64,000 nt of DNA from Hyphomicrobiales bacterium (GTDB taxonomy: Bacteria > Pseudomonadota > Alphaproteobacteria > Rhizobiales > Beijerinckiaceae), in the NCBI GenBank assembly GCA_027483945.1, contig JAIXTM010000012.1, positions 62,001-126,000 on the forward strand, read 5' to 3'. The notes under the pieces are model-generated. The model worked only from the letters and a program-made list of their open reading frames with translations. It was not told the DNA's origin and made no database searches. This document shows, piece after piece, positions 11,398 to 49,761 of the stretch. Positions within the stretch are counted from its first letter, which is position 1. The number at the start of each line of letters is the position of its first letter. A program made the position numbers and the translations under genes.

Positions 11398-13398
11398 ATG
11401 GCGAATGCTTCGTCGCGCGCGGATGCACCGATGTCTCCCGTCAGAGGCGCGGTCGCCGACACATTCCCCAAACTGCTGATGCACCATGCGCGCGCACGGG
11501 GCGACCGCCCCGCCATGCGCCACAAGGACCTGGGCATCTGGCAGAGCTGGACCTGGGCGGAGGTCGCCGACGCGGTCCGCGCCTATGCGGTGGGCCTGTC
11601 GCGGCTCGGGCTGAAGCGGGGCGAATCCATCGCCATCGTCGGCGCCAACCGCCCGCGGCTCTACTGGACCGTGATGGCTGCCCAGATGCTGGGGGCGGTG
11701 CCGGTGCCGGTCTATGCCGACGCGGTGGCGGACGAGCTCGCCTATGTCCTGGCTCATGCGGAAGTCCGCTTCGCATCTGTGCAGGATCAGGAGCAGGTGG
11801 ACAAGCTGCTCTCCATCGCCGAGCGCCTGCCGAAGCTGGAGCATATGGTCTATGACGAACCGCGCGGCCTGCGGGACTACGACCATACGCGCCTGCATTC
11901 CATCGACGATGTCGTGGCCGAGGGACGCGACGCGCTGAGGACCGCCAGCGTCGACAGCTGGCTCGACGGCGAGATCGCCGCGGGTTCCGGCGAGGATATC
12001 TCCATCATCCTCTACACGTCCGGAACGACCGGCCGGTCGAAAGGCGTGATGCTGACCGCGCGGGGGTGCATCGAGGCGGCCGCGGATACGGTGGCCTTCG
12101 ACAGGCTGACCGACCGCGACGAGGTGCTGGCCTATCTGCCGCTCGCCTGGGTCGGCGACCATTACCTGAACTACGCGCAGGGGCTTGTCGCGGGCTTCTG
12201 CATGGCGTGTCCGGAATCCACCGACACGGCGCAGGCGGACCTGCGCGAGATCGGCCCGACCTTCTATTTCGCCCCGCCGCGCGTCTTCGAGAGTCTCCTG
12301 ACGCGGGTGATGATCCGCATGGAGGACGCGAGCGCGCCGAAGCGGCGGATGTTCCACTATTTCGTGGACGTCGCCAGGCGCTATGGCGAGAAGATCCTGA
12401 ACCGGGAAAGCGTGCCCCTGTCGGGACGGCTGCTCTACGGGCTCGGCGAGCTGCTTGTCTACGGGCCGCTCAAGAACGTGCTCGGCTTCTCCAAGATCCG
12501 CGTCGCCTACACCGCCGGCGAGGCGATCGGGCCGGAGCTCTTCTCGTTCTATCGCTCGCTCGGCCTCAACCTGAAGCAGCTCTACGGGCAGACCGAGGCC
12601 TTCCTCTACGTGACGGCCCAGCCCGATGGGCAGATCCGCGCCGACACGGTGGGGCCCGCGACGCCGAACGTCGAGATCCGCATCGCGGAGAGCGGCGAGG
12701 TGCTGTTCCGCTCGCCGGGCCAGTTCAAGGGCTATTTCAAGGAGCCCGAGAAAACCGCCGAGACAATGACCGAGGACGGTTTCGTCAAGACCGGCGATGC
12801 CGGTTTCTTCGAGCCGAAATCGGGGCATCTGAAGATCATCGACCGCGCCAAGGATGTGGGGCGCCTGCGCAGCGGCGCGCTGTTCCCGCCCAAATACGTG
12901 GAGAACAAGCTGAAGTTCTACCCCAACATCAAGGAGGTGGTGGCTTTCGGCGACGGGCGTGATTTCGTCACCTGCTTCATCAACATCGACATGACCGCCG
13001 TCGGTAACTGGGCCGAGCGCAACAATGTCGTTTATGCCTCCTACCAGGAACTGGCGGCGATCCCGGCGGTCTATGACATGATCGCCGCCCACGTGGACGA
13101 GGTGAACCGCTCGCTCGCCGCCGAGCCCGGCATGGCGGGCGCGCAGGTCAAGCGCTTCCTCATCCTGCCCAAGGAACTCGACGCCGATGACGGCGAGTTG
13201 ACGCGCACCCAGAAGGTGCGCCGCGGCTTCATCTCCGAGCGTTACCAGCCCCTGATCGACGGCCTCTATGACGGTTCGCCGGAGGCGACGATCGCGGTGG
13301 AAGTGACGTTCGAGGACGGTCGCAAGGGCAATATCAGCGGGACGGTCGCCATCCGCGACGCCGCGATCCACCCGGACGTCGCGGAGGCCGCGGCATGA
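11398..13398 (+). CDS. AMP-dependent acyl-CoA synthetase (long-chain acyl-CoA synthetase family)
   Basis: About 666 residues. I prefer ATG 11398, 12 bases after GGGAGG, over TTG 11386, which touches that site. The P-loop YTSGTTGRSKG is at 206-216, the LYGQTE adenylation motif lies near 395, and GD(A)GFF plus IDRAKD follow. It activates a carboxylic acid as acyl-AMP and then acyl-CoA. Its length and layout resemble the large synthetase that sits in front of Liv transporter genes in many Proteobacteria; the natural acid may be aryl or branched rather than long-chain. The stop overlaps the ATPase start (ATGA). Confidence 0.88.
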   Translation: MANASSRADAPMSPVRGAVADTFPKLLMHHARARGDRPAMRHKDLGIWQSWTWAEVADAVRAYAVGLSRLGLKRGESIAIVGANRPRLYWTVMAAQMLGAVPVPVYADAVADELAYVLAHAEVRFASVQDQEQVDKLLSIAERLPKLEHMVYDEPRGLRDYDHTRLHSIDDVVAEGRDALRTASVDSWLDGEIAAGSGEDISIILYTSGTTGRSKGVMLTARGCIEAAADTVAFDRLTDRDEVLAYLPLAWVGDHYLNYAQGLVAGFCMACPESTDTAQADLREIGPTFYFAPPRVFESLLTRVMIRMEDASAPKRRMFHYFVDVARRYGEKILNRESVPLSGRLLYGLGELLVYGPLKNVLGFSKIRVAYTAGEAIGPELFSFYRSLGLNLKQLYGQTEAFLYVTAQPDGQIRADTVGPATPNVEIRIAESGEVLFRSPGQFKGYFKEPEKTAETMTEDGFVKTGDAGFFEPKSGHLKIIDRAKDVGRLRSGALFPPKYVENKLKFYPNIKEVVAFGDGRDFVTCFINIDMTAVGNWAERNNVVYASYQELAAIPAVYDMIAAHVDEVNRSLAAEPGMAGAQVKRFLILPKELDADDGELTRTQKVRRGFISERYQPLIDGLYDGSPEATIAVEVTFEDGRKGNISGTVAIRDAAIHPDVAEAAA

Positions 13399-44948: not shown

Positions 44949-45950
44949 ATGGAACTCTTCGCGCTTCCCGTAAACCCGGTCCCGGCCCAGGGACACTCAT
45001 TCTCCGTCACGACGGCGGACGGGATCGTCCTGCGGGCCGCGCGCTGGCGGCCGACGACGCGCAAGGTGAAGGGCACCGTCCTGGTCGTGCAGGGCAGGGC
45101 GGAGTTCATCGAGAAATATTTCGAGACGATCGGGGACCTGCGGCGGCGCGGCTTCCACGTCGTCGCATTCGATTTCCGGGGGCAGGGCGGCTCGCAGAGG
45201 CTGACCGGCAATCCCCGCAAGGGGCACGTCCCGCGCTTCGCCCATTACCTGCGGGACCTCGACGCCATCGTGGGGCAGGTCCTGCCGGGCCTGCCGCAGC
45301 CCTGGTTCGCGCTCGGCCATTCGATGGGCGCGGCCGTACTGATCACTGCCGCCCACGGACGGGCCGCGCCGTTCCGGCGCATGGTGCTGACCGCACCGCT
45401 CATCGACATACGCGCGACGGAGGGGCGGGTCTGGCCCTTCCTCCTGGCGGGGGCGATGAAGGCGCTCGGGATGGGATCGTCCTTCATCCCCGGTGGGGGC
45501 GAGACCTCGCTGATGACCAAGCCCTTCGCCGGCAACCGGCTGACCCGCGACCCGGTGCGCTATGCCCGCAACGCGGAACTGGCGGCGCGCTTCCCGCATC
45601 TGGCGATCGGCGAGCCGACCGTGTCATGGCTCTGGACGGTGATGTGGGCGCTCAAGGCCTTCCGGGCGCCGCGCTACCCGCTCGAGGTCGCCGTGCCGAC
45701 CCTCATCATGGCAGCGGGCGAGGACGAGATCGTTTCGACGCGTTCCACGGAACGTTTCGCGGCGCGTCTCAAAGGCGGCCATGCCCTGATCGCGCCGGGC
45801 GCCAGGCACGAGATCCTCAACGAGACCGATAGCATACGCCAGGAATTCTGGGCCGCATTCGACGCTTTCGTGCCCGGCACCGAGCGTGCGCGGGTGCCGC
45901 GGGAGCCCGCAGCCGATCAGGCGTTGAGCAGCGCCAGCGTCGCCTCGTGA
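44949..45950 (+). CDS. Alpha/beta hydrolase, lysophospholipase-like
   Basis: 333 residues from ATG 44949; the frame extends upstream to 44823 but overlaps the hsp20 promoter and leader. GRAEFIEKYFETIGDLRRRGFHVVAFDFRGQGGS is typical of the PldB-like group, GHSMGAA holds the nucleophile Ser, and the catalytic Asp and His lie in AAGEDEIVS and GARHEILNE. It probably hydrolyses lysophospholipids or monoacylglycerols. The 3' end overlaps the HisN-like gene by 34 bases, tail to tail. Confidence 0.88.
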   Translation: MELFALPVNPVPAQGHSFSVTTADGIVLRAARWRPTTRKVKGTVLVVQGRAEFIEKYFETIGDLRRRGFHVVAFDFRGQGGSQRLTGNPRKGHVPRFAHYLRDLDAIVGQVLPGLPQPWFALGHSMGAAVLITAAHGRAAPFRRMVLTAPLIDIRATEGRVWPFLLAGAMKALGMGSSFIPGGGETSLMTKPFAGNRLTRDPVRYARNAELAARFPHLAIGEPTVSWLWTVMWALKAFRAPRYPLEVAVPTLIMAAGEDEIVSTRSTERFAARLKGGHALIAPGARHEILNETDSIRQEFWAAFDAFVPGTERARVPREPAADQALSSASVAS

Positions 45951-46699
45951 ACCGCGCGGCTGCCTGAGGCGACGACCGAGCCGCCGTCCTGGGCCGGCTT
46001 GCCGTCCCACGTGGTGACGATGCCGCCGGCGCCCTCGATGATGGGGATGATGGCCACGATGTCGTAGGGCTTGAGGTTGGTTTCCACGACCACGTCCACG
46101 AAGCCTGCCGCCAGCATGCAGTAGGAATAGCAGTCGCCGCCATAGCGGGAGAGGCGGGCCTGGCCCTCCACCCGGCGGAACCGCTCGCGGTTTTCCTCCG
46201 ACATGAGGAGCGGGCTCGTGGTCATGAGCGTCGCCTCGGAAAGGCCTGAGCAGTCGCGGGTGCGCAGGGACCTCTTGCCGGTGGCGCCGCGCCAGATCGC
46301 CCGTTTGCCGTCGCCGGAGAAGCGCTCGCCCGTGAAGGGCTGGTGCATCATGCCGTGGCAGGGGATGCCGTTGCGGGTCAACCCGATCAGCGTGCCCCAC
46401 ATGGGCAGGCCGCAAATGAACGATTTGGTGCCGTCGATCGGATCCAGCACCCAGACATATTCGGCGTCCCCGTTCTCGCTCCCGTATTCCTCGCCGACGA
46501 TGCCGTGGGCGGGGAAGGTCCGCTTGATGAGGTGGCGCATGGCCGCCTCGGCCGCCTTGTCCGCCTCGGTGACCGGATCGAACGCTCCGCCGGCATTCTT
46601 GTCCTGCGCCGCCAGATTGGTGCGGAAAAACGGCAGGATCGCACTGCCGGACAGCGTGGCGAGTTCATCGACGAACTGGGAGAAATCGACTGCCGTCAT
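45917..46699 (-). CDS. Inositol monophosphatase family protein, HisN-like
   Basis: 260 residues from MTAVDF (46699); the longer frame to 46759 has no family match. Metal-binding motifs GEEYGSE and WVLDPIDGTKSF are intact, and YDIVAIIPIIEGAGG is the C-terminal site. Members of this branch are often histidinol-phosphate phosphatases (last-but-one step of histidine synthesis) or inositol phosphatases; the sequence alone does not decide. It is convergent with the hydrolase gene. Confidence 0.87.
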   Translation of the reverse strand: MTAVDFSQFVDELATLSGSAILPFFRTNLAAQDKNAGGAFDPVTEADKAAEAAMRHLIKRTFPAHGIVGEEYGSENGDAEYVWVLDPIDGTKSFICGLPMWGTLIGLTRNGIPCHGMMHQPFTGERFSGDGKRAIWRGATGKRSLRTRDCSGLSEATLMTTSPLLMSEENRERFRRVEGQARLSRYGGDCYSYCMLAAGFVDVVVETNLKPYDIVAIIPIIEGAGGIVTTWDGKPAQDGGSVVASGSRAVHEATLALLNA

Positions 46700-46820
46700 G
46701 CGGAAAGCACCCCCGATCAAGTGATCATCGGCTGTAGCCGCTTCGCGCACGGGCCGCAACGCACGCGCGTTCAGCGCATGGGAAGCAGATCAGCCATGAT
46801 AAATTGGTAGGGCTAACGGC

Positions 46821-46849
46821 TTGAATTTTTTGCGGTGCACGCGCATATT
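46821..46849 (+). promoter_or_regulatory. Sigma-70-like promoter for a candidate small RNA
   Basis: TTGAAT (46821-46826), 17 bases, CATATT (46844-46849). Four of six positions match at each element, with ideal spacing. No protein gene starts downstream on this strand before a strong terminator at 46920-46950. Confidence 0.5.
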
Positions 46850-46855
46850 GTTGCA

Positions 46856-46950
46856 GTGCGATATCGTGATTGGCGTTGCGGTATCGCCTGCCCTCCTTGG
46901 GCGTTTCCTCCCTAGACTTGGACCGCTCACGCAAGTGCGCGGTCCTTTTT
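46856..46950 (+). ncRNA. Candidate trans-acting small RNA with two anti-Shine-Dalgarno motifs
   Basis: About 95 nt. The 5' stem GCGATATCG (46858-46866) pairs with CGGTATCGC (46879-46887) with one wobble. A small stem GCCC (46890-46893) and GGGC (46899-46902) displays TCCTT, so CTCCT is in a loop. TTTCCTCCCT (46904-46913) is single-stranded. A canonical terminator closes it at 46920-46950. Rhizobial alpha-r14-type RNAs and other alphaproteobacterial sRNAs use exposed CCUCC motifs to block ribosome sites. It lies in the 275-bp gap between the HisN-like and N-formylglutamate genes, both on the other strand, so the terminator has no other client. Confidence 0.65.
46920..46950 (+). terminator. Intrinsic terminator of the candidate small RNA
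   Basis: GGACCGC-T-CAC (46920-46930), loop GCAA, GTG-C-GCGGTCC (46935-46945), then TTTTT. One mismatch in an 11-bp stem. On the plus strand no coding gene precedes it. Confidence 0.9.
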
Positions 46951-46974
46951 CTTGGTCTGGAGGTCTAAAGACGC

Positions 46975-47856
46975 CTATTCCGCCGCCATGCGCCGCCCGG
47001 GCGCCAGATCGTCCGCCAGGTGGGGGATCACGGCCTTGAAAACGGCGGTCAGCGTGCCGGACAGGCGGCCGTACCCGCTTGTCGGCTCAAGGGTCCGCTC
47101 ATTCATGTAGAGCCCGCGGTTGATCTCCACCTGCAGGGCATGGCGCCCCGCCAGCGGCTCGCCGTAATGCTCGGTGATGAATCCGCCGGCATAGGGCTTG
47201 TTGCGCACCACATGGAAGCCGTGGCGGCGCAGCTCGCGCTCGACACGGTCCGTCAGCGCGCCGGCGCAACTGGTGCCGAACCGGTCGCCCAGGATGACGT
47301 CCGGCCGGCGCCCGCCCTCCCGCGCCAGTCCTGCGGACGGCATGGAATGACAGTCGATCAGGGCGGCGACGCCGAATTCACGGGCCGTGCGCATCACGAG
47401 CTGACGCAGCGACTGGTGATAGGGCTTGTAGAAGTCCTCGATGCGGGCGAGACCCTCCTCAGCCGCGATCCGCCCCGCATAGATTTCGCGTCCATCCCCG
47501 ACGATACGCGGGATCGTGCCCAGCCCGCCGGCCACCCGCATGGACCGCGTATTCGCGAAAGGCGGAAGGCGCCCTTCGAACAACCGGGGGTCGAGTTCGT
47601 AGGGCTCGCGATTGACGTCGAGGAAGGCGCGGGGGAAGCGCGCGATCATGAGCGGCGCGCCCAGGCCCAGCACTCCGGAAAACAGGTCGTCGACGAACGC
47701 GTCCTCGGACCGCCGCAGCGTCAGGGCGTCGAGCCGCGAGGCGGCCAGGAAGTGCGGATAATAGTCACGCCCCGCATGGGGCACGTTGAACACGACGGGC
47801 GCGGCAAGCCGCGACGGCTCGCGGATGAGGAAAGGGCGGGGCGCCTCGGCGGTCAT
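46975..47856 (-). CDS. N-formylglutamate amidohydrolase
   Basis: Hydrolyses N-formyl-glutamate to glutamate and formate, or acts on related N-acyl amino acids. 293 residues from ATG 47856, with GAGGAGG about ten bases upstream; the upstream frame overlaps the cpdR control region. VFNVPHAGRDYY (His), the RSEDAFVDDLF segment and DCHSMPS carry zinc ligands. An isolated copy outside a hut operon, next to cpdR, is the usual arrangement in Rhizobiales; its physiological role there is unclear. Confidence 0.92.
   Translation of the reverse strand: MTAEAPRPFLIREPSRLAAPVVFNVPHAGRDYYPHFLAASRLDALTLRRSEDAFVDDLFSGVLGLGAPLMIARFPRAFLDVNREPYELDPRLFEGRLPPFANTRSMRVAGGLGTIPRIVGDGREIYAGRIAAEEGLARIEDFYKPYHQSLRQLVMRTAREFGVAALIDCHSMPSAGLAREGGRRPDVILGDRFGTSCAGALTDRVERELRRHGFHVVRNKPYAGGFITEHYGEPLAGRHALQVEINRGLYMNERTLEPTSGYGRLSGTLTAVFKAVIPHLADDLAPGRRMAAE

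Positions 47857-49686: not shown

Positions 49687-49761
<75 letters not shown>

Follow-up and report, generated by a model that had tools for sequence, protein, structure and literature searches.

Background

MmgR of Sinorhizobium meliloti and SisA-D of Caulobacter crescentus are the described small RNAs closest to the RNA gene analyzed here. MmgR (SmelC689) belongs to Rfam family RF00519 (suhB/mmgR, alpha-r8), whose Rfam title is "Makes More Granules Regulator RNA"; it is 77 nt long, is an Hfq-dependent negative regulator of the storage polymer (PMC8401924), and is credited in a review with three stem loops. Ahead of its start site is a PhaR/AniA box that PhaR bound efficiently in gel shift, and the study lists one PhaR site there, gives the 21-bp motif as WNWD2NYGCRNYGCRNH2WNW, and places the start site 13 nt past this motif (PMC12542648). 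The same text reports that PhaR goes to granules when polymer accumulates and that depletion of PhaR leads to overproduction of MmgR (PMC12542648). MmgR-type control in S. meliloti also includes activation by NtrC, and the repression of phasins there may be indirect; according to PMC12559287, direct targets of MmgR have yet to be identified.

SisA-D are four copies that share the 10-mer UUUCCUCCCU, a weak hairpin before it and a terminator, and no common promoter motif is reported for them (PMC12559287). The seed of SisA pairs with Shine-Dalgarno regions, 8 of the 10 RIL-seq partners that were tested are under negative control by SisA (with no phasin named among them in the section consulted), SisA is itself sequestered by CrfA, and an N-formylglutamate amidohydrolase gene (FGase) is the published alpha-r8 neighbor, as at sisA (PMC12559287).

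Anti-Shine-Dalgarno motifs are also the means by which NfeR1, the alpha-r14 RNA, acts. The alpha-r15 RNA AbcR is ~114-120 nt long and has two CU-rich motifs. NfeR1 is defined by three hairpins that each carry CCUCCUCCC (PMC10746234). For the Microvirga, Chelatococcus and Methylobacterium kin of the organism studied here, a literature search in which Microvirga and Chelatococcus were not queried by name returned no study of an alpha-r8 RNA, and a Methylorubrum paper states that small RNAs were left unexamined (PMC6520949).

Results

A predicted alpha-r8 small RNA

We analyzed a 64-kb window (the whole stretch of DNA, 64,000 nucleotides) in which an original prediction, made from the letters alone, had placed a small RNA of ~95 nt with two exposed anti-Shine-Dalgarno motifs. 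The covariance-model check that it proposed returned RF00519 at 46883-46960 (+), with 63.2 bits against a cut-off of 41 (E = 1.1e-10) and an alignment spanning model positions 1-77 of 77. RF00519 was the only family above cut-off at this position; the other above-cut-off Rfam match in the window was a tRNA (49687-49758), and matches to NmsRb, SorY and sbrA scored under their own cut-offs. This match, the fold and the conservation in relatives all support the proposed transcript: the gene at 46856-46950 (+) is very probably genuine, a predicted member of the known alpha-r8 family, and the ~95-nt anti-Shine-Dalgarno RNA is well supported as a prediction (Table 1). It shares both Rfam family and anti-Shine-Dalgarno core with MmgR, whose 77 nt it is predicted to exceed. 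Two small open frames overlap it, 46821-47039 (+) and 46725-46934 (-), both without a Pfam match.

Table 1 Predicted features of the RNA locus and its flanking genes (window coordinates)
Feature	Position	Strand	Basis
hisN-like histidinol-phosphatase gene, divergent from RNA	45917..46699	-	TIGR02067, 332.5 bits (cut-off 275.15)
Predicted sigma-70-type promoter: TTGAAT 46821-46826, 17 bases, CATATT 46844-46849	46821..46849	+	Sequence
PhaR/AniA box 1, TGCGGTGCA, in -35/-10 spacer	46831..46839	.	Fits core YGCRNYGCR
PhaR/AniA box 2, TGCAGTGCG, over predicted start site	46852..46860	.	Fits core YGCRNYGCR; 21 bp from box 1
Predicted small RNA, alpha-r8/MmgR family, ~95 nt	46856..46950	+	RF00519 match; 5' end from promoter spacing
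5' hairpin H1, 13 pairs incl. G-U, loop UGGC	46858..46887	+	Fold, covariation; mostly outside RF00519 model
Mini-hairpin H2, GCCC-UCCUU-GGGC	46890..46902	+	Fold; stem invariant in 20 sequences, loop varies
Family core UUUCCUCCCU, predicted unpaired anti-Shine-Dalgarno seed	46904..46913	+	Fold; same 10-mer as SisA-D
Intrinsic terminator H3 and U-run	46920..46950	+	Covered by RF00519 model; 7 pairs, 100% of cells paired in 20 sequences
N-formylglutamate amidohydrolase gene (FGase), convergent with RNA	46975..47856	-	PF05013, 7.6e-75

Within the family, 117 of 119 genomes gave an RF00519 match (115 over cut-off), as did 131 of 150 within the order (115 over cut-off). Three family genomes had 14, 12 and 10 matches (E up to 0.001, cut-off not applied to all), compared with 1-2 in many others. 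The genome to which the window belongs has a second alpha-r8 copy (C17:84106-84184, 50.7 bits), and two copies are likewise present in its sister genome, the only further one of the genus, compared with the four of SisA-D. The second copy carries a variant seed, UUUCCUCCUU (CCUCCUU), lacks tandem PhaR-type boxes, adjoins a tRNA-Glu gene and lies ~7 kb from phaC, an arrangement repeated in the sister genome. Since the two copies have separate promoters, separate control is suggested, as with SisA-D.

Fold and conservation of the RNA

All elements named in the original prediction could be located where it had placed them, some in corrected form. A 110-nt fold reached -49.2 kcal/mol (z = -4.8), with 0 of 200 shuffles as good. 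The 5' stem, described originally as 9 bp, is present but consists of 13 pairs including G-U (arms 46858-46870 and 46875-46887; none of 100 shuffles gave an equally good fold). The mini-hairpin also exists, with arms GCCC (46890-46893) and GGGC (46899-46902), although its loop was said to show CUCCU and in fact reads UCCUU, so that the first C of CUCCU is paired. The single-stranded CCUCCC was found at 46907-46912, within UUUCCUCCCU, which is unpaired, or paired only in its last 1-2 bases, in folds started at 46883 and 46851; in a fold begun at 46865, pairing with the 3' end involves two of its Cs. The terminator is likewise present and consists of GGACCGC/GCGGUCC (46920-46926/46939-46945), one mismatch, CAC/GUG (three pairs) and then U5; a simple terminator scan did not list 46920-46950.

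Conservation separates the two proposed anti-Shine-Dalgarno motifs. Stems, UUUCCUCCCU and terminator are kept in relatives: among Rfam-picked copies, UUUCCUCCCU occurs in 59 of 61, missing only from the second copies of this genome and its sister, which have UUUCCUCCUU instead, and it is invariant in 70 syntenic copies, which were picked by it. The loop motif varies, with UCCUU in 47 of the 61 Rfam-picked copies but in 8 of the 70 syntenic ones, the remaining 62 reading UUCUU. Because UUUCCUCCCU is kept while the loop changes, we read the RNA as having a single conserved seed, the other motif differing between lineages, and the two-motif claim is borne out for one motif only.

The first position of the RF00519 model falls at 46883, within the 3' arm of H1; because the model begins in a conserved hairpin, its 5' end is here probably ~25 nt too late, and the predicted 95-nt transcript (46856-46950) is the better fit. 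With the S. meliloti spacing of 13 nt from PhaR motif to start site, the start here would be 46858. We drew 20 low-redundancy sequences from the 70 syntenic copies for a covariation analysis, in which 96.6% of cells were paired (vs. 33-53% when slid) and RNAalifold returned the same three helices, H1, H2 and H3. Of the 11 H1 pairs tested, 4 have both bases changed, and G-U steps also occur, with pairing kept. Cells with two-sided changes numbered 21, against 7.1 in shuffles (reached by 0 of 500), and the covariation score was also reached by 0 of 500 shuffles; the excess was modest for pairs with two-sided changes (5 vs. 3.6, reached by 65 of 500) and for further pair types (19 vs. 16.8, reached by 41 of 500).

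H1 was also examined in best-hit loci from other genera, with the start site assumed to be box 2 + 4. This covered 46 of 57 loci (5 of 27 from the order and 6 of 30 from the family, all without box 2, were left out), and in every locus having box 2—22 of 22 in the order and 24 of 24 in the family—a hairpin of at least 8 pairs starts at the box, each of the 46 hairpins beating at least 97 of 100 shuffles; in one of the 24 family loci (L024) the wrong box was taken as start and the fold shows two hairpins. These results suggest that the RF00519 model omits most of a conserved 5' hairpin. Placed at the extreme 5' end, such a hairpin would be expected to slow 5'-dependent decay or shield the RNA end.

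Two PhaR-type boxes in the promoter

The sigma-70-like promoter with 17-base spacing is present as predicted, with 4/6 and 4/6 consensus bases in its hexamers. At 8/12 in total it was absent from a simple promoter scan that needs at least 9/12; we credit it because it is conserved in relatives, where, judged by eye, TTG and a spacing of 16-17 recur across syntenic copies.

Two sites that fit the nine-base core of the S. meliloti PhaR motif lie in this promoter, compared with the one site listed for mmgR and with the lack of any reported common motif for SisA-D. Both boxes are present in 67 of 70 syntenic copies, box 2 alone in 2 and neither in 1, so that the position of box 2 is occupied in 69 of 70. 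The core itself is common (78 occurrences in the window), with only two pairs spaced 16-24 bp, and the tandem pattern occurs twice in the genome of the window (one being the RNA promoter) and once in the sister genome (again the RNA promoter), compared with 0 and 1 for the reversed pattern used as control. The other tandem match in the genome of the window lies at C1:23481. Among best-hit loci, the stretch 38-80 nt before the seed holds at least two boxes in 16 of 30 from the family and 20 of 27 from the order, a single box in 11 and 4, and none in 3 and 3, leaving 14 of the 30 family loci without tandem boxes.

The correspondence with S. meliloti is confined to the core. The AT-rich arms of the published motif are unmatched at both boxes, box 2 deviates from a perfect TGCN3GCA palindrome, and the full 21-bp motif occurs in the window only at 13211 and 51091; across the order, the published 21-mer of the S. 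meliloti promoter was matched in 7 of 397 genomes, in none of them before an alpha-r8 core. From the sequence, PhaR likely represses the RNA promoter through the two tandem boxes. The primary MmgR literature could already contain a description of the second box and of the 5' hairpin.

Genomic neighborhood

The original prediction had placed the RNA in a hisN-like/cpdR neighborhood, and this holds: the hisN-like gene lies to the left (its end set at an internal ATG, the open frame running to 46759), and cpdR (NF046022, 202.8 bits) lies to the right, past FGase as seen from the RNA. The end of FGase was set provisionally at an ATG, its open frame extending to 47991; this gene is the neighbor shared with sisA. 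Among the best 80 of 549 confirmed FGase relatives, which are mostly from Microvirga, Chelatococcus and Methylobacterium/Methylorubrum and of which the nearest is from a Hyphomicrobiales MAG (92% identity), the RNA core TTTCCTCCC lies near FGase on the expected strand in 69 loci. The other 11 loci, 10 of them from Methylobacterium, lack the core in the fetched stretch, with cpdR still there, and for these we propose lineage-specific loss or move of the RNA. One of the 11 (L051) would have a copy beyond the fetched stretch, ~3 kb away from FGase.

In tblastn searches of the FGase flanks, a HisN match was found in 42 of 80 loci and a CpdR match in all 80, including the 11 RNA-less ones. Because cpdR flanks FGase whether or not the RNA is there, its adjacency is uninformative about the RNA, and the cell-cycle link that had been drawn from it is left without support and was dropped.

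Storage-polymer genes and candidate targets

The genome of the window encodes phaR (147.3 bits), phaC (783.3 bits), two phasins (92 and 54.8 bits) and hfq (110.9 bits). Its phasin A promoter (L115 1339-1490, contig C5) reads TTGACATTTTTGTGCGGTGCAACATATAAGG and holds the identical nine bases of box 1 in its spacer, as in the RNA promoter; in both this and the sister genome, TGCGGTGCA lies between TTGAC and CATATAAGG. A strict phasin-type promoter pattern was found in only 4 of 118 family genomes at up to 2 mismatches, 2 of them being these phasin A promoters, and is not family-wide.

Phasin messages were also considered as direct targets. We compared duplex energies, calculated without an accessibility term, for phasin A of both genomes and phasin B of the genome of the window against 44 roughly called window genes (crude gene caller), and found that seed pairing with the phasin start regions was weak: 43, 27 and 44 of the 44 window genes, respectively, paired at least as well, and 42, 35 and 44 did so when H2 was added to the seed. 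Direct phasin pairing is thus unsupported here, and the phasins are unlikely to be direct targets, in agreement with the lack of any identified direct target of MmgR stated in PMC12559287. In the genome of the window, the 10-mer seed finds its exact complement only in the RNA's own antisense (reversed control: 1), so any target would pair partially; no perfect complement elsewhere, such as a target or a CrfA-like sponge might carry, was found in this genome. The sister genome has one further exact seed complement (C5:10958).

Discussion

We hold it probable that the gene at 46856-46950 (+) encodes an alpha-r8 RNA that is repressed by PhaR via tandem boxes and blocks Shine-Dalgarno regions, likely on Hfq. 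As polymer builds up, PhaR would move to the granules, as reported for S. meliloti; titrated off its sites, it would free the phasin gene and the RNA gene together, and the released RNA, likely on Hfq, could cover Shine-Dalgarno regions through its exposed UUUCCUCCCU and block ribosome binding. Given the two PhaR-type boxes in its promoter, the RNA is probably produced as polymer granules draw PhaR away. We infer transcription, PhaR binding at this promoter, titration of PhaR by granules and Shine-Dalgarno pairing by the seed, which together would make this a PhaR-repressed, Hfq-assisted anti-Shine-Dalgarno RNA of the storage-polymer circuit.

The most serious competitor, to which we give somewhat less than an even chance, has the RNA, similar to SisA, repress transport and catabolic messages broadly by anti-Shine-Dalgarno pairing, with only a loose tie to storage and possibly under sponge control. 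The behavior of SisA toward most of its tested partners, its sequestration by CrfA and the weak phasin pairing found here would fit such a role, whereas the presence of both PhaR-type boxes in 67 of the 70 syntenic promoters speaks for a closer tie to storage, and a perfect seed complement, which a strong sponge might have, was not found elsewhere in the genome. Broad repression is nonetheless compatible with PhaR control of the promoter, and the probability given to it overlaps that of the preferred account. Another reading treats the inverted repeats as DNA operators, or as the remains of a decayed RNA gene that gives no functional transcript. Some of the conservation in H1 may stem from DNA binding, since box 2 overlaps its 5' arm; yet H1 pairs change on both sides and through G-U steps with pairing kept, the H1 loop varies in size among best-hit loci while the stem stays, and the seed, the H2 stem and the terminator are conserved too, leaving this reading very improbable.

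Hardly credible at all is an alpha-r14 (NfeR1) or alpha-r15 (AbcR) identity with two anti-Shine-Dalgarno motifs, of which the original prediction had invoked the former as a likeness. CCUCC-type motifs and several hairpins are held in common, but CCUCCUCCC, found in each NfeR1 hairpin (PMC10746234), is absent from 46821-46960, which rules out NfeR1; RF00519 is the sole family over cut-off at the locus; and the gene neighborhood is the published alpha-r8 one (PMC12559287). No alpha-r15 family appeared among Rfam matches at E up to 10, from a library that may lack an alpha-r15 model.

A broader form of the preferred account, which we regard as about evenly balanced between true and false, holds that across the order (Hyphomicrobiales) alpha-r8 is a dedicated granule readout whose promoter is clamped by tandem PhaR boxes and which acts as a delayed brake under a signal shared with the phasin. 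Roughly two helical turns (mostly 19-21 bp) would separate the box in the spacer from the box on the start site, and the transcript would open with a covarying 5' hairpin beginning inside box 2, such that one granule signal may turn on both the storage proteins and an RNA restraining the surrounding metabolism.

These results turn a vague candidate into a member of a named family with a testable circuit, and suggest that a PhaR link published for one species may be widespread in the order, often with two boxes.
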